From Spirilliplanes yamanashiensis (GTDB lineage: Bacteria > Actinomycetota > Actinomycetes > Mycobacteriales > Micromonosporaceae), in assembly GCF_016863475.1 (NCBI RefSeq), contig NZ_BOOY01000037.1:1-64000 (forward strand): a DNA stretch of 64,000 nucleotides, read 5' to 3'. Positions within the stretch are counted from its first letter, which is position 1. Each line of letters opens with the position of its first letter. The translations under genes and the position numbers were made by a program. Under the pieces are notes generated by a model, which saw only the letters and a program-made list of their open reading frames with translations, did no database searches and had not been told where the DNA came from. This document shows positions 14,093-23,626 of this stretch, one piece after another.

Positions 14093-14776
14093 GTGCCGCT
14101 GCTCTACACGATCGGTCAATGGACCGTCGGCAACACCATGAAGCTCGGCTGGCGGCCCACCGTCGAGGGCCTGGAGAACGTCCCGGCGACCGGGGGCGCC
14201 ATCCTCGCCGGCAACCACCTGTCCGTCGCCGACGAGCTGTTCCTCGGCTCCGTCGTGCCCCGGCACATCGCGTTCTGGGCCAAGTCGGAGTACTTCAAGG
14301 GCTCCGGCGTCGGCGGCCGGCTCACCCGCGCGCTCATGCACGGCCTCGGCTGCATCCCCGTCGAGCGGGCCGGCGGGCGGGCTGCGCTGGCCGCGTTCGA
14401 CGGCGCCGTCCCGGTGCTCAAGGCCGGCGACCTGGTCGCGGTCTACCCCGAGGGCACCCGCTCGCCCGACGGCCGGCTCTACCGCGGCCGCACCGGCGCC
14501 GCCCGGCTCGCCGTCGCCGCCGGGGTGCCGCTCATCCCGGTCGGCGTCCTCGGCACCGAGAAGGTGCAGCCCATCGGCCAGCCGTACCCGAAGCCGTTCA
14601 CCGGCAAGGTCACCGTCCGGTTCGGCAAGCCGATCGAGACCACCGGCCGCGGCGACGACCGCACCGCCCTGCGCGAACTCACCGACGAGCTGATGGCCGA
14701 GATCCAGAAGCTCACCGGCCAGGAGTACGTGCCGCGGTACGCCCCGCCGCGCGGCGCCACCCCGCCCGCCGCCTAG
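14093..14776 (+). CDS. 1-acyl-sn-glycerol-3-phosphate acyltransferase (PlsC family)
   Basis: A membrane-associated acyltransferase of phospholipid synthesis that converts lysophosphatidate to phosphatidate. The 227-residue protein has the catalytic HX4D motif as NHLSVAD, and the substrate-binding block YPEGTRSPDG about 70 residues later. GTG at 14093 is chosen because GGAGG sits just upstream; an ATG at 14069 in the same frame has no such site. The last bases overlap the convergent photolyase gene by four nucleotides, the two stops sharing CTAG. Other family members acylate different lysolipids, so the substrate is inferred. Confidence 0.88.
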   Translation: MPLLYTIGQWTVGNTMKLGWRPTVEGLENVPATGGAILAGNHLSVADELFLGSVVPRHIAFWAKSEYFKGSGVGGRLTRALMHGLGCIPVERAGGRAALAAFDGAVPVLKAGDLVAVYPEGTRSPDGRLYRGRTGAARLAVAAGVPLIPVGVLGTEKVQPIGQPYPKPFTGKVTVRFGKPIETTGRGDDRTALRELTDELMAEIQKLTGQEYVPRYAPPRGATPPAA

Positions 14777-16236
14777 GGGGTGCCGCGGGCGGCCTCCTGC
14801 TCCACCACCGCGTCGACGTCACCGAGCCGGTCCAGGCCGCGCAGCGGCTGGCGCATCCGGTGGTTGCCCTCGAACGCGGCGGCGTTGCGGGACAGGAACG
14901 CCCAGTACCCCGCCGTGTACGGGCACGCGTGGTCGCCCAGGCGCACCTTCGGGTCGTACCGGCAGCCGCCGCAGTAGTCGCTCATCCGGTTGATGTACGC
15001 GCCGCCCGCCGCGTACGGCTTCGTGCTCATCCGGCCCGCGTCGGCGAACTGGCTCATCCCGATCACGTTCGCCGTCATCACCCACTCGTAGCCGTCGACG
15101 AAGCAGCGGTGGAACCAGTCCGACAGCTCGTCCGGCCGCCAGCCCCGCTGCAGCGCGTAGTTGCCCAGCACCATCAGCCGCGGGATGTGGTGCACCCAGC
15201 CGCGGTCGCGCACCCCGGCCAGCACGTCCGCCAGGCAGCGCGCGTCGACGTGGTCGGCGTCGAGGTTCGCGAACCAGTCCGGCAGCGACGACCGGGCGCC
15301 CAGCCGGTTCTCGCCCCGGTACTCCGGTTCGAAGTACCAGTACAGGTGCCAGACGAAGTCGCGCCAGCCGATCAGCTGCCGCACGAAACCCTCCACGCTC
15401 GCCAGCGGCGCCGCCCCGGACCGGTACGCGTCCTCCGCGGCGTGCACCGCCTCCAGCGGGTCCAGCAGACCCAGGTTGATCGGCGCCGACAGCATGCTGT
15501 GCGCCATGAACGGGTCGCCGGCCAGCATCGCGTCCTCGTACGGGCCGAACACCGGCAGCCGGTGCCGCACGAAGTGCCGCAGCCGGGCCAGCGCCTCCCG
15601 CCGGGTGGCCGGGAACAGCCGCGGCCCGTCCCGGCCCACGAACTCGATGCCGTCGTCGCGCGCCCAGCGGTCCAGGTCCTCGCGCACCTGCGCGTCCACG
15701 TCGTCCTCGCGGATCGCCGGGGGCGGCGGCACCGCCAGCTTGTCCGCGCCGCGCGGCGGCGGCTGCCGGTTGTCGTGGTCCAGGTTCCAGGTGCCGCCCG
15801 CCGGCTCCGCGCCGTCCATCAGCACGTCGTGCCGGCGGCGCGCGTCCCGGTAGAAGTCCTCCAGCCGCAGCCCGCGCCGCCCGCCCGCCCACGCCGTGAA
15901 GTCCGCCGGCGCCGTCACGAAGCCGCGCGGCGGCAGCACCTCCGCGGCCAGCCGGTGCGCCAGGTCCCGGGCCCGCCGCGACGTCGGATGACACACCGAC
16001 ACCGGCTCGCCCAGCCCGCGCACCGCCTCGCCGTACGTCTCGGCCCGCACGAACACCGCCCGGTCGCCCAGCTCCGCCGCCCGGTGCCGCAGTGCCGACA
16101 GCACCAGGTGCGCCTTCTGCCGGTGGAAGCGCCGGCGGCGGAACACCGCCTTCGACTCCACCAGCAGCACCGGCTGCCGCGGCCCGTCGAGGAAGTGCGG
16201 ACCCAGCTGGTCCGCGAACAGCCAGCGCCGCATCAT
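14773..16236 (-). CDS. Iron-sulfur (6-4) photolyase / CryPro-type cryptochrome-photolyase
   Basis: A 487-residue FeS-BCP family member that would bind FAD and a [4Fe-4S] cluster and repair pyrimidine (6-4) photoproducts with light. The N-terminal antenna-binding Rossmann domain begins RRWLFADQLGPHF. The C-terminal FAD region has NLGLLDP, FVRQLIGWRDFVW and ANVIGMSQFADAG. Four cysteines lie at 334, 422, 425 and 438. Their spacing of 88, 3 and 13 equals that of the cluster ligands in Agrobacterium PhrB (350, 438, 441, 454). The gene is convergent with the acyltransferase gene and the start codon is an ATG pair. A photoreceptor role instead of repair is possible. Confidence 0.92.
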   Translation of the reverse strand: MMRRWLFADQLGPHFLDGPRQPVLLVESKAVFRRRRFHRQKAHLVLSALRHRAAELGDRAVFVRAETYGEAVRGLGEPVSVCHPTSRRARDLAHRLAAEVLPPRGFVTAPADFTAWAGGRRGLRLEDFYRDARRRHDVLMDGAEPAGGTWNLDHDNRQPPPRGADKLAVPPPPAIREDDVDAQVREDLDRWARDDGIEFVGRDGPRLFPATRREALARLRHFVRHRLPVFGPYEDAMLAGDPFMAHSMLSAPINLGLLDPLEAVHAAEDAYRSGAAPLASVEGFVRQLIGWRDFVWHLYWYFEPEYRGENRLGARSSLPDWFANLDADHVDARCLADVLAGVRDRGWVHHIPRLMVLGNYALQRGWRPDELSDWFHRCFVDGYEWVMTANVIGMSQFADAGRMSTKPYAAGGAYINRMSDYCGGCRYDPKVRLGDHACPYTAGYWAFLSRNAAAFEGNHRMRQPLRGLDRLGDVDAVVEQEAARGTP

Positions 16237-16264: not shown

Positions 16265-17974
16265 TCATGCGCGGCCGAGCACCGCGCCGCGCAGCAGATT
16301 CACCAGCTCCGCGCTCTCGTCCAGCGACCGGCGGGTCAGCAGCACCCGGGCCAGGCTGCCATGATCGGCCCACCCGCACACCGCCACCGCCGCCCCGCCG
16401 TCCCGGCCCACCCCGCACCGCAGGTGCGCCCCCTGCTCACCCGTCTCGTACGTCTGCACGCCGCTCAGCCGGTACTCGGCGTCGAGCCGGCTGACCTCCT
16501 GCTCCAGGTCCGTGCCGGGCCGCCAGCGCAGCCCCGTCACCCCCGCCACCGTCACCCGCTTGCCGCGCCGGTCGGTGTAGACCCCCGCGAACGCCTCGTC
16601 GCCGCCCAGCGGCCGCATCTCCTCGGCGAGGGCGTCCGCCGTCCGCCGCCCGGCCGCGTCGTCGCGCAGGCTCAGATCCTTGAACGTCAGCGGCAGCACC
16701 GCGTCCGCCGGGTACTGCTGCGCCACCGGCCACCCGAACCACGCCGGCACGCCACAGCAGCACAGCAGGCTGACCAGCGAGAACACCCCGAAGCGCCGCC
16801 CCCACCGGCGCCGCCTGCGCGGCGGCGGAGGCGGCGGCCCCACCGGCCGCGCGGGCGGCCGCCGGTCCGCGAGCCGCTGCGCCTCCGACAGCCGGGCCTG
16901 CGCCTCGGCCAGCGCCTTCGCGGCGGCCCGGCGCTCGCGCCGGTTCGGCTTCCTGGTGGGTACGCGCGGCGGTGGCGGCGGCAACGGCCGCCTCCCGGGC
17001 TGCGCGGCGGCCCCGTGCGCCCTTGCCGACGCTGTCGGCGCCGCCGGCGGGTGGCCGGCGCCGCGCGGCGGTGGGGGCGGTGGGGGAGCGGCGGCCCGGC
17101 GGTCGGCGGCGGGCCTGGATGGCTGGCCCGCCCCCGGCGGGAAGCCGGGCACCCGGTCGTGGCGGGTGGGCGGGTGCGCGGCGGCCGGGTCCTGGCGGGT
17201 CTGGGGGTGGCCGGCGGCCGGGTCGTGGAGGCCGCGTGGGTGGCCGGGGGCGAGGTCATGGCGGGTGGGTGGGAAGGCGGCGGGCCCGTCGGGGGCCGTG
17301 CGGGGCCGGCCGGGGCGGTCGATCGCCGTCGGCGGCAGGTCGACCGGCCGCTCGACGGCCGTGGGCGGCAGGGTCGTCCACCCGGCGTCTTCCGGCAGCC
17401 CGCCGGCGAGCCACGGGGCGTCCTGGCCGGCCCACGGGTCGACCGCGGGCGGGTGCTCGGGCACCGGCTCCTCGGCCGGCGGCGGGGGCGGCTGGGTGCG
17501 CCGCAGCCGCGCCCACCGGCTGCGCTTGGGCTGCGCGGGCGGCACGACCGCCGACCCGCTCCACCGCGCCAGGCCGGGATCGGTGGGCTCGTCGCCGTTG
17601 CCGGTGACGGGCGTGGCGTCCCCGGCCCGCGTCGCCTCGTCGGCGGCGGTCCCTTCGACCCGGGTGCGGTCGGACCCGGGCCCGCCCGCCTCGACCCGCG
17701 TGGCATCGTTCCCGGCGGCCGGGCGAGGGGCCTCGGACCACGTGGGGCCGGAACCGGCCCCACCAGCGTCGACCCGCGTGGGGTCGCTCTCGACCGCCGC
17801 GTCGCCGTCCGCGGCCGGACCGGCCGTGGACGGTTCGAATATGTCTGTGCGTCTTTCGGTGGCGGCCCCGTCGGGGCCGGTGGGGCGGGGGTCGGCGGGC
17901 GGAGCGGCGACGCCGTCGGGCCCGGGCGCCGGGGTGCCGGCGTGCGGGTTCGGGTCGCCGACCTGGTGGGACAT
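16265..17974 (-). CDS. Repeat-rich single-pass membrane protein with CGWADHGS domain
   Basis: The 569-residue protein has a disordered cytoplasmic N-terminus with repeated D.TRVEAGG-like segments, then a Pro-rich part with a fourfold 11-residue repeat. A charged helix (about 370-395) and one membrane segment (about 415-435, Cys-rich) follow. The extracytoplasmic domain ends LRCGV...VCGWADHGSLARVL, the same pattern as in the gene at 61-723. The ATG at 17974 follows GGAGAGGAAA, so the in-frame extension to 18154 is rejected. It is divergent from the RsbQ-like gene. Function is unknown; a link to stress signalling next door is speculation. Confidence 0.8.
   Translation of the reverse strand: MSHQVGDPNPHAGTPAPGPDGVAAPPADPRPTGPDGAATERRTDIFEPSTAGPAADGDAAVESDPTRVDAGGAGSGPTWSEAPRPAAGNDATRVEAGGPGSDRTRVEGTAADEATRAGDATPVTGNGDEPTDPGLARWSGSAVVPPAQPKRSRWARLRRTQPPPPPAEEPVPEHPPAVDPWAGQDAPWLAGGLPEDAGWTTLPPTAVERPVDLPPTAIDRPGRPRTAPDGPAAFPPTRHDLAPGHPRGLHDPAAGHPQTRQDPAAAHPPTRHDRVPGFPPGAGQPSRPAADRRAAAPPPPPPPRGAGHPPAAPTASARAHGAAAQPGRRPLPPPPPRVPTRKPNRRERRAAAKALAEAQARLSEAQRLADRRPPARPVGPPPPPPRRRRRWGRRFGVFSLVSLLCCCGVPAWFGWPVAQQYPADAVLPLTFKDLSLRDDAAGRRTADALAEEMRPLGGDEAFAGVYTDRRGKRVTVAGVTGLRWRPGTDLEQEVSRLDAEYRLSGVQTYETGEQGAHLRCGVGRDGGAAVAVCGWADHGSLARVLLTRRSLDESAELVNLLRGAVLGRA
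17135..17266 (-). repeat. 33-bp tandem repeat, four units, coding
   Basis: Four 33-bp units encode 11-residue variants of TRHDxAPGHPx in the proline-rich cytoplasmic part of the membrane protein at 16265-17974. Confidence 0.75.
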
Positions 17975-18108: not shown

Positions 18109-18114
18109 TAATGT
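18109..18114 (+). promoter_or_regulatory. Candidate -10 hexamer of RsbQ-like operon
   Basis: TAATGT ends eight nucleotides before the ATG at 18123, and no Shine-Dalgarno is evident. It supports 18123 rather than the in-frame ATG at 18111, which lies within the hexamer. Confidence 0.35.
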
Positions 18115-18122
18115 CGGCTGGG

Positions 18123-18920
18123 ATGAGCACGCTGTTGCGGAATGCGATCACCATGTGCGGGCCGCCGGACGGTCCGCCGATGCTTTTCGCGCACGGGTTC
18201 GGGTGCGATCAGAACATGTGGCGGTACGTGGCGCCCGCGTTCGAGGAGTCGCACCGGGTGGTGCTCTTCGACCACGTCGGGGCCGGGAAGTCCGATCTGT
18301 TGGCCTATGACCCCGAGAAGTACGACTCGCTGAACGGGTACGCCACCGACGTCCTGGAGATCGTCGAGGAGCTGGACCTGCGCGACGTGGTGTTCGTGGG
18401 GCACTCGGTGAGCGCCATGATCGGCGTGCTCGCGGTGGTGCGCGACCCGGGCCGGTTCGCGGGGCTGGTGCTGGTGGGGCCGTCGCCGCGCTACATCGAC
18501 GATGCGGACTACGTGGGCGGGTTCGGCAAGGCGGACGTCGACGAGCTGATCGACTCGCTGGACAGCAATTATCTGGGCTGGTCGTCGGCGATGGCGCCGG
18601 TGATCATGGGCAACCCGGAGCGGCCGGAGCTGGGCGAGGAGCTGACGAACAGCTTCTGCCGCACGGATCCGGCGATCGCCCGGCAGTTCGCCCGGGTCAC
18701 GTTCTACGGCGACAACCGGGCCGACCTGGCGCAGGTGGCGGTGCCGTCGCTGGTGCTGCAGTGCGCCGACGACCCGATCGCCCCGACGCCGGTCGGCGAG
18801 TACGTGCACCGCGCCATCCCGGGCAGCAGCATCGTGCACCTGACGGCGACGGGGCACTGCCCGAACCTGAGCGCCCCCGAGGAGACGGTGGCCGCGATCC
18901 GGGCGTTCCTGGCGACATGA
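18123..18920 (+). CDS. rsbQ: RsbQ-like alpha/beta hydrolase (KAI2/RsbQ family)
   Basis: The 265-residue protein resembles Bacillus subtilis RsbQ along its whole length: HGFGCDQ, AFEESHRVVLFDHVGAG, CRTDPAIARQFA and LQCADDPIAP. The catalytic triad is visible as Ser95 (GHSVS), Asp217 and His245 (GHCPN). RsbQ is required with the PAS-phosphatase RsbP to activate SigB in energy stress, probably by delivering a small hydrophobic ligand to the PAS domain. Here too the next gene, overlapping by ATGA, encodes a PAS-containing PP2C phosphatase. The family also includes the plant karrikin/strigolactone receptors. The ligand is unknown. Confidence 0.92.
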   Translation: MSTLLRNAITMCGPPDGPPMLFAHGFGCDQNMWRYVAPAFEESHRVVLFDHVGAGKSDLLAYDPEKYDSLNGYATDVLEIVEELDLRDVVFVGHSVSAMIGVLAVVRDPGRFAGLVLVGPSPRYIDDADYVGGFGKADVDELIDSLDSNYLGWSSAMAPVIMGNPERPELGEELTNSFCRTDPAIARQFARVTFYGDNRADLAQVAVPSLVLQCADDPIAPTPVGEYVHRAIPGSSIVHLTATGHCPNLSAPEETVAAIRAFLAT

Positions 18921-21310
18921 GCGTGCCGGAGACCCGTGACTCCGGCCAGGAGCTGCCGCTGCCGTGGGACGACACCGCGCAGGAGCTGTACGAGCACGCC
19001 CCCTGCGGCTACCTGACCACGCTGCCCGACGGCACGGTGGTCAACGTCAACGAGACGTTCCTGTCGTGGACGGGCTACGGCCGGGCGGACCTGGTGGGCC
19101 GCAAGCGCCTGCGGGACCTGCTGGGCGTCGGCAGCCTGATCTACTACGAGACCCACGTGGCGCCGCTGCTGCGGATGCAGGGCGAGGTGCGCGAGATCGC
19201 GCTGGACGTGCGGTGCGCGACGGGCCGGCGGATGCCGACGCTGGTCAACGCGACGCTGAACTACGACGCCGACGGGGCCGAGCGGGTCATCCGGGTCACG
19301 GTGTTCGACGCGACGGAGCGCCGCCGGTACGAGGCGGAGCTGTTGCAGGCGCGCCGCACCGCGGAGGAGTCCGAGCGGCGGGTGCGGGTCCTGCAGCAGG
19401 TGGTGGCGGACCTGGCGGCGGTGCCGACGGCGAGCGGGGTGGCGCGGGCCGTGGTGGCGGCGGCGGGGCCGGCGTTCGGGGCGGCCGACGGCGGGCTGTG
19501 GGTGGTCGACGGCGACCGCAAGCAGCTGGTGCTGGCGGCGGCCGCGGCGCACGCGGGGTTCCGGGACGTGGCGCTGAGCGCGGCCGGTGCGGCGGCGACG
19601 GTGGTGCGCCGGGGCGAGCCGGTGGTGCTGGCGGGCGCGGCGAAGCTGCGCACGGAGCTGCCGGAGTGGGCGCCCGCGCTGCTGCGGCAGGGGCGGCAGG
19701 GCGCGCTGCTGGTGCCGTTGACGGCGCACGAGGCGGTGCTGGGCGTGCTGGTGTGCACGTTCACGGAGGCGCACGCGGTGAGCGACAGCGAGCTGCAGCT
19801 GGCCCGGCTGCTCGGCCAGCAGGCGGGGCAGGCGCTGGACCGGGCCCGGCTGTACGACGAGGTGCGGCTGCGCGAGGAGCGCGCGGTTTTCCTGGGCGAG
19901 GTCAGTCGCGACCTGGACGGCGTCACGGGGCTGGCGGAGCGGGCCCGGCTGCTGGCGGAGATGGTGGTGCGCGGGGTCGCCGCGTACGCGCAGGTGCGCC
20001 TGGCCGGTGAGGCGGAGGTGCTGGCGGAGGCGGGGGAGCCGGCGGCGACCGGCACGGACATCGAGCTGCCGCTGACGGTGCGCGGCGCGGTGGCGGCCAC
20101 GCTGACGTTGCGCCCGCACGGTGGCCTGCCGGTGCCGGACCCGGCGTTCCTGGCGGAGCTGGCGGACCGGGCGGCGCCCGCGCTGGAGAACGCCCGGCTG
20201 TACGAGCGGGAGCGGGAGGTGGCCCGCACGCTGCAGCGCAGCCTGCTGGCCGGTGAGCCGCCGGGCGACCTGCGGTTCACGGTCGAGGCCTGTTACCGGC
20301 CGGCCGGGGGCGGGCTGGAGGTGGGCGGCGACTGGCACGATGCGTTCCTGATCACGCCGGACCGGCTGGCGGTGGTGGTCGGCGACGTGGTGGGGCGGGG
20401 CCTGCACGCGGCGAGCACGATGGGCCAGCTGCGCAGCGCGGTGCGGGCGCTGGCCGCGGCGGAGGCCGGCCCGGCGCGCCTGGTGGAGCAGCTGGACCGG
20501 TTCGTGGACCGGGTGGAGACGGCCCGGATGGCGACGGTCGCGTACGCGGAGATCGCCCTGGACACGGGCACGATGACGTACTGCTGCGCGGGCCATCCGC
20601 CGCCGCTGCTGCTGCCGGCGCACGCCGACCCGGAGACGCTGTGGGAGGGCCGGTCGGCGCCGCTGGGCTCGCGGGCCGGGCGGCGGTCCCGCGCGGAGGC
20701 GACGGTGCGGCTGGTGACCGGCGACCGGGTGCTGCTGTACACCGACGGGCTGGTCGAGCGCCGCGACCGGCACCTGGACGAGGGGCTGGACCGGCTGGCC
20801 GCGATGTTCGCGACGCGCCGCCGGTCGCCGATGAAGGGCCTGACGGCGCGGATCGCGGACGCCATGCTGATGGGCGGCGAGCCGCCGGACGACGACGTGT
20901 GCCTGCTGTGCGTGTCGCTGGGCACGGAGCCGCGGCTGGAGCGCACGATCCCGGCGGACCCGTACCGGATCAAGGCGGTGCGCACCGACCTGAAGGGCTG
21001 GCTGGAGTTCCGCGGCGTCGACGAGGACAGCGCGGACGCGCTGCTGCTGGCGCTGTCGGAGGCGGTGGCGAACGCCATCGAGCACGGCTACCGCGACTGC
21101 GCGGACGGCACGGTGACGGTGACCGCGACGCAGCTCGGCGACGAGGTGATCCTGCGGGTCGCCGACAAGGGGACGTGGCGCGAGCCGCGCCCGGACGACC
21201 CGGCGCGCGGGCGCGGGCTGTTCCTGATCGGCAAGCTGACGGACCAGATGGAGATCAACACCGACGGCGGGACCACGGTGACGATGCGACGGCAGGTGGC
21301 CGGTGGCTGA
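18917..21310 (+). CDS. RsbP-like PAS-GAF-PP2C phosphatase fused to HATPase anti-sigma kinase domain
   Basis: A 797-residue signalling fusion. Domains in order are: PAS (about 20-140, beginning YEHAPCGYLTTLPDGTVVNV); a short coiled coil; GAF (about 165-305); a second degenerate GAF-like segment (about 315-430); a SpoIIE/PP2C phosphatase (about 450-670, with GGDWHDAF near 468, GDVVGRGLHAAS, YTDGLVE and PPDDDVCLL); and an RsbW-like HATPase (about 680-790, N-box LALSEAVANAIEHGY near 710 and GRGLFLIGKL). The PP2C would dephosphorylate an RsbV-type antagonist, and the HATPase would bind a sigma factor or phosphorylate the antagonist. The ATGA overlap with the RsbQ-like gene suggests the PAS domain is RsbQ-dependent. 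No sigma factor gene is nearby. Confidence 0.9.
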   Translation: MSVPETRDSGQELPLPWDDTAQELYEHAPCGYLTTLPDGTVVNVNETFLSWTGYGRADLVGRKRLRDLLGVGSLIYYETHVAPLLRMQGEVREIALDVRCATGRRMPTLVNATLNYDADGAERVIRVTVFDATERRRYEAELLQARRTAEESERRVRVLQQVVADLAAVPTASGVARAVVAAAGPAFGAADGGLWVVDGDRKQLVLAAAAAHAGFRDVALSAAGAAATVVRRGEPVVLAGAAKLRTELPEWAPALLRQGRQGALLVPLTAHEAVLGVLVCTFTEAHAVSDSELQLARLLGQQAGQALDRARLYDEVRLREERAVFLGEVSRDLDGVTGLAERARLLAEMVVRGVAAYAQVRLAGEAEVLAEAGEPAATGTDIELPLTVRGAVAATLTLRPHGGLPVPDPAFLAELADRAAPALENARLYEREREVARTLQRSLLAGEPPGDLRFTVEACYRPAGGGLEVGGDWHDAFLITPDRLAVVVGDVVGRGLHAASTMGQLRSAVRALAAAEAGPARLVEQLDRFVDRVETARMATVAYAEIALDTGTMTYCCAGHPPPLLLPAHADPETLWEGRSAPLGSRAGRRSRAEATVRLVTGDRVLLYTDGLVERRDRHLDEGLDRLAAMFATRRRSPMKGLTARIADAMLMGGEPPDDDVCLLCVSLGTEPRLERTIPADPYRIKAVRTDLKGWLEFRGVDEDSADALLLALSEAVANAIEHGYRDCADGTVTVTATQLGDEVILRVADKGTWREPRPDDPARGRGLFLIGKLTDQMEINTDGGTTVTMRRQVAGG

Positions 21311-21644
21311 CTCGGTGACGTTGGCGCGGTTCGGCTCGGTGGACGTGGTGCGCATGGTCGGCGAGGTCGACATGAGCACGGTGCCCGGCATCGAGCGCAC
21401 GGTCGTGCCGCCGCTGCGCTCGGCGACGGCCGCCGTGGTGGACCTGACCGCGGTGGGGTTCCTGGACAGCGCCGGGGTGCGGCTGCTGGACACGCTGGTC
21501 GGCGACCTGGAGCGGCGCGAGGCGCGGGTGGCGCTGGTGGTGCCGCCGGTCGGGGAGGTGCGGATGGCGCTGCAGCTGTGCGCGTTCCGCGAGGACCTGC
21601 TCCAGCCGGACCTCACGGCCGCCCGCGCCGCCGTCGCGGGCTGA
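21303..21644 (+). CDS. STAS-domain anti-sigma factor antagonist (RsbV-like)
   Basis: A 113-residue STAS protein with the phosphorylation loop VGFLDSAGVRLL, placing the target serine at residue 56, and the N-terminal EVDMSTVPGIE typical of RsbV/SpoIIAA. When unphosphorylated it would bind the anti-sigma HATPase and free the sigma factor. It starts at GTG 21303, inside the end of the phosphatase/kinase gene, so the two are translationally coupled. Position and order (RsbQ, RsbP-W, RsbV) make a compact partner-switching module. Confidence 0.9.
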   Translation: MADSVTLARFGSVDVVRMVGEVDMSTVPGIERTVVPPLRSATAAVVDLTAVGFLDSAGVRLLDTLVGDLERREARVALVVPPVGEVRMALQLCAFREDLLQPDLTAARAAVAG

Positions 21645-21667: not shown

Positions 21668-23626
21668 ATGAGCGTGCAGTCCGTCTTCCCGAAGCTCGAG
21701 CAGTTGCTGCCCCTGGTGAGCAAGCCGATCCAGTACGTGGGGGGCGAGCTCGGCGCTGTCGTCAAGGACTGGGACGCGACGACCGTGCGCTGGGCGCTGA
21801 TGTACCCGGACGCGTACGAGGTGGGCCTGCCCAACCAGGGCGTGCAGATCCTGTACGAGGTGCTCAACGAGCAGCCCGACGTGCTGGCCGAGCGCACCTA
21901 CGCGGTGTGGCCGGACCTCGAGGCGCTGATGAAGGAGCACGGCGTCCCGCAGTTCACGGTCGACGCGCACCGCCCGGTGACGGCGTTCGACGTCTTCGGC
22001 GTCTCGTTCTCCACCGAGCTGGGCTACACGAACCTGCTGTCGGCGCTGGACCTCGCGGGCATCCCGCTGGAGTCGGCGGATCGCACCGGCGAGCACCCGA
22101 TCGTGGTGGCCGGCGGGCACGCGGCGTTCAACCCGGAGCCGATCGCCGACTTCATCGACGCGGCGGTGCTGGGCGACGGCGAGGAGGCCGTCCTCGAGAT
22201 CACCGGCATCGTGCGGGAGTGGAAGGCGGAGGGCTCGCCGGGCGGCCGCGACGAGCTGCTGCTGCGCCTGGCCCGCACCGAGAGCATCTACGTGCCGCGC
22301 TTCTACGACGTCGACTACCTGCCCGACGGCCGCATCCAGCGGGTGGTGCCGAACCGGGCGGACGTGCCGTTCCGGGTGGCGAAGCGCACGACCATGGACC
22401 TGGACGCCTGGCCGTACCCGAAGAAGCCTCTGGTCCCGCTCGCGGAGACGGTGCACGAGCGGTACGCGGTGGAGATCTTCCGCGGCTGCACGCGCGGCTG
22501 CCGGTTCTGCCAGGCGGGCATGATCACCCGGCCGGTGCGGGAGCGCTCGATCACGACCGTCGGCCAGATGGTCAAGGAGGGCCTGGAGTTCTCCGGCTTC
22601 AACGAGGTCGGCCTGCTGTCGCTGTCGAGCGCCGACCACTCCGAGATCGGCGACATGTGCTCGGGCCTGGCCCAGCAGTACGCCGACGAGAACGTGTCGC
22701 TGTCGCTGCCGTCGACGCGGGTGGACGCGTTCAACATCGACCTGGCGCAGGAGCTGTCGCGCAACGGCCGCCGCACGGGCCTGACGTTCGCGCCGGAGGG
22801 CGGGTCGGAGCGCATCCGCAAGGTCATCAACAAGATGGTGACCGAGGAGGACCTGATCCGGACGGTCGTCACCGCGTACTCGAACGGCTGGCGGCAGGTG
22901 AAGCTGTACTTCATGTGCGGCCTGCCCACCGAGACCGACGACGACGTGCTGCAGATCGCCCACATGGCGCACGAGGTGATCCGCGCCGGCCGGGCCGCGG
23001 CGGGCACCAAGGACATCCGCTGCACGGTGTCGATCGGCGGGTTCGTGCCGAAGCCGCACACCCCGTTCCAGTGGGCGCCGATGGAGCGTCCCGAGGTGAT
23101 CGACAACCGGCTGAAGCTGCTCAAGCAGGAGATCAACTCGGACCGCTCGCTGGGCCGGGCCATCGGCTACCGGTACCACGACGGCGAGCCGTCGCTGATC
23201 GAGGGCCTGCTGTCGCGCGGCGACCGCCGGGTGGGCGCGGTGATCCGCCGGGTGTGGGAGAAGGGCGGCCGGTTCGACGGCTGGAGCGAGCACTTCTCGT
23301 ACGGCCGGTGGGTCGAGTCGGCGGCGGAGGTGCTGCCGCGGTTCGGCGTCGACCTTGACTGGTTCACCACCCGCGAGCGCCAGCACTCCGAGGTGCTGCC
23401 CTGGGACCACCTGGACTCGGGCCTCGACAAGGACTGGCTCTGGCAGGACTGGCAGGACTCCAAGAGCGAGTTCGAGCAGGACGACTGCCGGTGGACGCCG
23501 TGCTTCGACTGCGGCGTGTGTCCGTCGATGGACACGGAGATCCAGATCGGCCCGACGGGCCGCAAGCTGCTGCCGCTGACGCCGGTCGGCGGGTCACCGC
23601 TGCGGATGCCTGCCCACACCCACTAG
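21668..23626 (+). CDS. B12-binding-domain radical SAM protein, TIGR03960 type
   Basis: The 652-residue protein has an N-terminal cobalamin-binding-like domain (about 20-200) and a radical SAM core. The cluster motif CTRGCRFC is at residues 274-281. A cysteine-rich C-terminal tail (CFDCGVC) follows. In many bacteria this family is encoded directly before, or fused to, a DUF2344/TIGR03936 protein, next to rne and rplU-rpmA. Here the DUF2344 gene begins near 37.3 kb, separated by about 13.6 kb. The substrate is unknown; a role in RNA modification or ribosome-linked processes has been suggested only from context. Its stop shares CTAG with the convergent methyltransferase. Confidence 0.9.
   Translation: MSVQSVFPKLEQLLPLVSKPIQYVGGELGAVVKDWDATTVRWALMYPDAYEVGLPNQGVQILYEVLNEQPDVLAERTYAVWPDLEALMKEHGVPQFTVDAHRPVTAFDVFGVSFSTELGYTNLLSALDLAGIPLESADRTGEHPIVVAGGHAAFNPEPIADFIDAAVLGDGEEAVLEITGIVREWKAEGSPGGRDELLLRLARTESIYVPRFYDVDYLPDGRIQRVVPNRADVPFRVAKRTTMDLDAWPYPKKPLVPLAETVHERYAVEIFRGCTRGCRFCQAGMITRPVRERSITTVGQMVKEGLEFSGFNEVGLLSLSSADHSEIGDMCSGLAQQYADENVSLSLPSTRVDAFNIDLAQELSRNGRRTGLTFAPEGGSERIRKVINKMVTEEDLIRTVVTAYSNGWRQVKLYFMCGLPTETDDDVLQIAHMAHEVIRAGRAAAGTKDIRCTVSIGGFVPKPHTPFQWAPMERPEVIDNRLKLLKQEINSDRSLGRAIGYRYHDGEPSLIEGLLSRGDRRVGAVIRRVWEKGGRFDGWSEHFSYGRWVESAAEVLPRFGVDLDWFTTRERQHSEVLPWDHLDSGLDKDWLWQDWQDSKSEFEQDDCRWTPCFDCGVCPSMDTEIQIGPTGRKLLPLTPVGGSPLRMPAHTH

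Follow-up and report, generated by a model that had tools for sequence, protein, structure and literature searches.

A 64,000-nucleotide stretch of Spirilliplanes yamanashiensis DNA (contig NZ_BOOY01000037.1; hereafter the window) contains, at 18123-21644, three overlapping genes that encode an RsbQ-type alpha/beta hydrolase, a multidomain regulator carrying both a PP2C phosphatase and an RsbW-type HATPase, and an RsbV-like STAS protein. It is probable that together these genes form a complete partner-switching unit whose input is an RsbQ-PAS module, in which RsbQ gates the release of a SigB/F-type sigma factor. The position of the block, its three parts and the partner-switch reading were put forward in an initial annotation made from the sequence; the first two are confirmed by the open reading frames and domain matches, and the reading is supported by the conservation of the catalytic residues and of the STAS linkage.

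All three genes lie on the forward strand. The rsbQ-like gene (18123..18920, with an in-frame ATG at 18111 as an alternative start) encodes 265 residues, including a triad of S95, D217 and H245. It overlaps the regulator gene (18917..21310, 797 residues) by 4 bp, ATGA at 18917-18920, and the regulator gene in turn overlaps the STAS gene (21303..21644, 113 residues, GTG start) by 8 bp, GTGGCTGA at 21303-21310. These overlaps support the translational coupling that had been suggested for the three genes. Chance open reading frames are ruled out, as the protein matches, overlaps and conservation far exceed chance.

RsbQ was sought at a threshold of E <= 1e-40 and was present in 86 of 251 Micromonosporaceae genomes and in 24 of 396 genomes sampled across the phylum; the neighbourhoods of 120 loci were scanned. 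This survey of RsbQ-PAS-PP2C-HATPase operons, which the initial annotation had called for, found RsbQ together with a PAS-GAF-PP2C-HATPase protein and STAS only in Micromonosporaceae among the genomes sampled. Among the best 80 matches listed, the fusion is found in Actinoplanes, Paractinoplanes, Couchioplanes, Amorphoplanes, Nucisporomicrobium, Symbioplanes, Pseudosporangium, Mangrovihabitans, Virgisporangium, Dactylosporangium, Verrucosispora and further genera. In other Actinomycetota, RsbQ is mostly paired with PAS-PP2C or PAS-GAF-PP2C proteins without HATPase. A STAS gene lies directly downstream at all 24 distinct HATPase-fusion loci, at 11 of the 63 RsbQ-PAS-PP2C loci without HATPase and at none of the 23 whose output is of another kind. 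Fisher's test gives 2e-13, uncorrected for kinship; the first two counts were 28/28 and 11/65 before duplicates were removed.

The hydrolase had been described as very RsbQ-like with a full Ser-Asp-His triad, and so it proved. Its best match in the PDB is B. subtilis RsbQ (1wom, 6.2e-93 over residues 3-263), followed by the plant KAI2/D14 receptors (about 1e-45 to 1e-60), and S95, D217 and H245 are invariant in ten RsbQ homologues, the other nine of which are 55-73% identical to the window protein. It is single-copy in the S. yamanashiensis genome, where the next match is 29% identical. Two other Micromonosporaceae loci (L094, 7359-8165, and L095) carry additional RsbQ-like copies that share about 51% identity with the window RsbQ and have no RsbP-type PAS gene adjoining; a carbon-nitrogen hydrolase gene stands beside the L094 copy.

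The regulator begins with an RsbP-type PAS domain (19001..19318, residues 29-134, Pfam PAS_9) and, as expected of an RsbQ-PAS (Q-PAS) module, a triad-bearing RsbQ is encoded immediately upstream. In two-hybrid assays the PAS domain is both necessary and sufficient for RsbQ binding (PMC3183031), and changing F55 or Y59 of B. subtilis RsbP to alanine disrupts that binding (PMC3183031). The window residues A28-P29-C30-G31, L33, Y76, H80, P83 and E93 agree with the RsbQ-docking PAS class of the same paper; each of the diagnostic RsbP-PAS positions (in B. subtilis C10, L13, L48, F55 as an aromatic, Y59 as H/Y, P62, E72 and P86) is represented, so that the equivalents of F55 and Y59 are both kept. 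Position 53 in B. subtilis numbering is leucine in the window and R, K or Q in nearly all relatives; in B. subtilis RsbP the change Q53A had no significant effect (PMC3183031). The B. subtilis RsbP sequence used for this mapping agrees with every residue numbered in PMC3183031. Absence of a DIT motif from the end of the PAS domain was also considered as a marker of the Q-PAS class and was dropped, since the motif does not discriminate among the surveyed PAS domains: the window PAS has a DIT-like D-A-T, and D/N-A-T/R/S motifs are frequent among those partnered with RsbQ.

Between PAS and phosphatase (19310..20248) lie a GAF domain (GAF_2, residues 174-308), a second, eroded GAF (residues 339-404, window 19931-20128) and long helices. 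The Pfam scan gave no match to regulator residues 319-444. Orthologues such as L126 have two GAF stretches, and by this comparison the second stretch of the window copy, about 35 residues shorter, is an eroded GAF, so that its earlier label of “GAF-like” was correct. In an AlphaFold2 model of the 797-residue regulator, made with 16 orthologues (mean predicted local distance difference test score 83.9), the secondary structure has three long signalling helices, at 132-167, 290-335 and 409-444, which join the domains. The closest PDB entry, both by sequence (a match spanning 458-793) and by fold, is 3ke6, the RsbU and RsbW domains of Mycobacterium tuberculosis Rv1364c.

The SpoIIE-type PP2C domain (20357..20917; Pfam SpoIIE 5.6e-46, residues 481-667) has the acidic residues D490, D610 and D659/D660, together with D472, which lies a little ahead of the Pfam match. 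The RsbW/SpoIIAB-type HATPase that follows (20948..21289; HATPase_c_2 9.3e-28, residues 678-791) is the top score among 60 HATPase_c_2 matches in the genome and has E715 and N719 (N box), D750xG752, G765xG767, G785-T786 and R689. These acidic and HATPase residues, R689 included, are invariant in 17 fusion proteins, namely the window regulator and its 16 orthologues, which are 45-58% identical to it. R689 stands at the position of SpoIIAB R20, used there to hold partners. The STAS protein (Pfam STAS 4.4e-11) has, like RsbV, a STAS fold with a conserved serine: S56, the presumed phospho-acceptor, lies within LDSAG, and the LDSAG/LDSSG serine is kept in every HATPase-fusion locus.

By analogy with known families, the three proteins may work as follows. 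RsbQ would bind, and perhaps hydrolyse, a small molecule and would dock on the Falpha surface of the regulator PAS. The resulting change in PAS could run along the helical linkers, past both GAF positions, and reach the PP2C domain, where dimerisation and the switch helices would turn the phosphatase on and phosphate would be stripped from S56 of STAS. The dephosphorylated STAS would then bind the C-terminal HATPase of the regulator that dephosphorylated it, or of its dimer partner, and the HATPase would let go of a held SigB/F-type sigma factor. Without signal, the HATPase with ATP would phosphorylate S56 and the sigma factor would stay held. Partner switching is the reading we prefer because no active-site residue is missing from the fusion orthologues or varies among them, the RsbQ-docking PAS residues are kept, STAS accompanies every fusion and the block is maintained in two or more genomic surroundings. 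Further, Rv1364c, the closest solved protein, has reported kinase and phosphatase activity on STAS and interaction with SigF; RsbQ-PAS docking is published for RsbP, for which it is a testable hypothesis that RsbQ touches both PAS and linker, causing linker-mediated dimerisation that activates the phosphatase (PMC12143880); and S. yamanashiensis encodes nine SigB/F/G-type sigma factors, which score near or above the family cut-off and all lie on other contigs. It is a more tentative idea, and a doubtful one, that occupancy of a KAI2/D14-like hydrolase sets a phosphatase and an anti-sigma factor competing over one STAS in one complex, an arrangement that would have arisen in Micromonosporaceae by coupling of an RsbQ-PAS input to a GAF-PP2C-HATPase-STAS unit.

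Several observations weigh against a complete partner switch. The NCBIfam RsbW model scores 3.6e-13 on the regulator HATPase, or 49 bits against an equivalog cut-off of 145; because of this score the domain is not filed as RsbW, though it most likely works like RsbW. The ATP lid is short (18 residues, D750 to G767), as in Rv1364c, for whose kinase both activity and loss of activity have been reported. No sigma-B-type promoter matching the simple patterns tried was found 5' of rsbQ. There is also room for cross-talk, since the genome has 18 PP2C matches along with a number of STAS and HATPase proteins. Finally, the statement that the cognate sigma factor is not encoded nearby held true, no SigB/F/G-type gene being found on the 70-kb contig; and when a hidden Markov model built on the nine SigB/F/G proteins of S. 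yamanashiensis was run on all neighbourhoods retrieved, no sigma gene was found within about 7 kb of any fusion locus. The sigma step therefore rests on family analogy. The sole sigma gene near any rsbQ in the neighbourhoods scanned is SigB/F-like and is transcribed divergently to plain rsbQP genes in another genome, which belongs to the same order (L113, 7831-9555); it gives weak support to the view that Q-PAS modules serve the SigB/F class.

The lack of linked sigma genes also speaks for a different possibility, which we consider rather unlikely: that the HATPase serves solely as a STAS kinase and has given up sigma binding, that it and PP2C between them determine how far STAS is phosphorylated, and that STAS freed of phosphate acts in trans on a different RsbW-type anti-sigma factor or some other target. 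Retention of the STAS gene at every fusion locus, the short ATP lid and the many other HATPase_c_2 proteins of the genome, several of them free-standing, would all be in keeping with this. Against this, the partner-holding position R689 is invariant, and the kinase domain of Streptomyces OsaC interacts with sigma-B.

Plain rsbQP pairs are also present in other Micromonosporaceae. In a PP2C tree the fusion proteins are separate from the plain Micromonosporaceae RsbPs (branch 98/85), which group with those of Streptomyces and Pseudonocardiaceae (plain clade 100/98). In an RsbQ tree a single clade of 25 (98/100) unites the partners of these plain RsbPs, and every fusion partner falls outside it. 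Since the two trees show the same split, RsbQ travels with the type of its partner, a pattern that speaks for a functional pair. Both kinds occur within one genus (g4), where genome G130 has the fusion and G165 and G064 have the plain pair. The fusions do not form a single clean clade in the PP2C and RsbQ trees, which have 3-4 label changes and weakly supported deep forks; the fusion type may have arisen once or more than once.

Plain pairs lacking HATPase, and mostly lacking STAS, would be expected if RsbQ input acted chiefly through PP2C on STAS proteins encoded elsewhere, with the HATPase and adjacent STAS providing auxiliary feedback; canonical RsbP likewise acts in trans on a remotely encoded RsbV. 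However, the HATPase boxes are fully conserved and HATPase and STAS co-occur without exception, and we regard this arrangement as improbable. That the fusion is degenerate or neutral and works neither as a kinase nor as an anti-sigma factor, to which only the eroded second GAF of the S. yamanashiensis copy might point, is very improbable indeed given that every catalytic residue tested is invariant across the 17 sequences.

The genes around the block differ between groups, which shows that the three genes stay together in at least two genomic surroundings. At about 15 Actinoplanes-group loci the block is flanked by a proline-rich gene and a radical SAM gene, with a photolyase-related gene beyond the former in several; neighbours of these three types were not found at the Virgisporangium, Dactylosporangium and Verrucosispora loci. 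In the window, the proline-rich gene (16265-17974) and a deoxyribodipyrimidine photolyase-related (DPRP) gene (14773-16236) lie upstream on the reverse strand, divergent from rsbQ. A photolyase relative occupies the equivalent position in L119, L120, L122, L138 and L078, which could reflect either a light-related linkage or plain synteny. The radical SAM gene (Radical_SAM_N2, 21668-23626, forward strand) begins 23 bp past the STAS stop and may be co-transcribed; it adjoins the block in Actinoplanes-group loci at about 91-94% identity.

The unit is of value mainly because its compactness should help in identifying the ligand of RsbQ. Since the block supplies RsbQ along with the phosphatase, the kinase and their STAS substrate, co-purifying its three proteins and adding candidate sigma factors could reconstitute the pathway and provide a direct assay for that ligand. 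Micromonosporaceae also offer a natural comparison of fusion with plain rsbQP genomes, even within one genus. When PMC3183031 appeared, neither the RsbQ signal nor what RsbQ-PAS modules act on in bacteria other than Bacillus was known, and no later literature naming them was found. The initial annotation had assumed an energy-stress signal; this is not borne out, since such an assignment is without experimental support even in B. subtilis (PMC3183031).

Compared with known systems, the unit resembles B. subtilis RsbQ-RsbP in having the RsbQ gene directly upstream, an RsbP-type PAS as the most N-terminal domain and a PP2C driven through helical linkers, and differs in the GAFs between PAS and PP2C, the HATPase fused after PP2C and the coupled STAS gene. 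In Bacillus the components had been thought to be separate proteins at separate loci, but rsbQ and rsbP form one operon (PMC3183031), and it is only rsbV-rsbW-sigB that are found at another place. The same paper (Nadezhdin, Brody and Price 2011) listed 45 adjacent RsbQ/RsbP-PAS pairs, Streptomyces included, whose outputs are of the PPM, histidine kinase or diguanylate cyclase kind; nowhere in its text is an RsbQ-PAS-PP2C-HATPase-STAS combination mentioned. Streptomyces OsaC also has GAF and PAS sensors, PP2C and an RsbW-like kinase in one chain; however, its kinase domain, through which it interacts with sigma-B, is N-terminal, and the literature found on OsaC describes no RsbQ partner.

Within the same genome there are at least three further PP2C-HATPase proteins (L198, L201 and L206), some with STAS fused or adjacent, which share the fusion but lack a recognised RsbP-type PAS. 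L206 (contig C42, 3042-4967) has PP2C, HATPase and STAS in one chain, in the order of Rv1364c. At a further locus (L205, contig C6, 665-5203) PP2C, HATPase and STAS lie in consecutive overlapping frames; parts of the HATPase match there in two frames, so the PP2C-HATPase gene may be split or frameshifted.

The closest solved relative is Rv1364c (3ke6), with PAS, PP2C, RsbW-type HATPase and STAS in one chain. Its kinase and phosphatase domains are reported to phosphorylate and dephosphorylate Ser600 of its own STAS, it interacts with SigF in vitro, and the literature found on it mentions no RsbQ partner. In the window, a single chain likewise runs from PP2C into an RsbW-type HATPase, the active sites of both being intact, but STAS, rather than ending that chain, is a separate gene with an 8-bp overlap, GAFs are added and an RsbQ partner is present. 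Fusion of phosphatase and anti-sigma kinase is thus not the distinct architecture first supposed, being found in Rv1364c and in the PP2C-HATPase proteins of the same genome; neither it nor RsbQ-PAS-PP2C is new. The combination of RsbQ, PAS-GAF-PP2C-HATPase and a separate STAS appears to be undescribed in the literature searched, and what is new is mainly the joining of two published designs as a stable three-gene unit, confined to Micromonosporaceae among the genomes searched.

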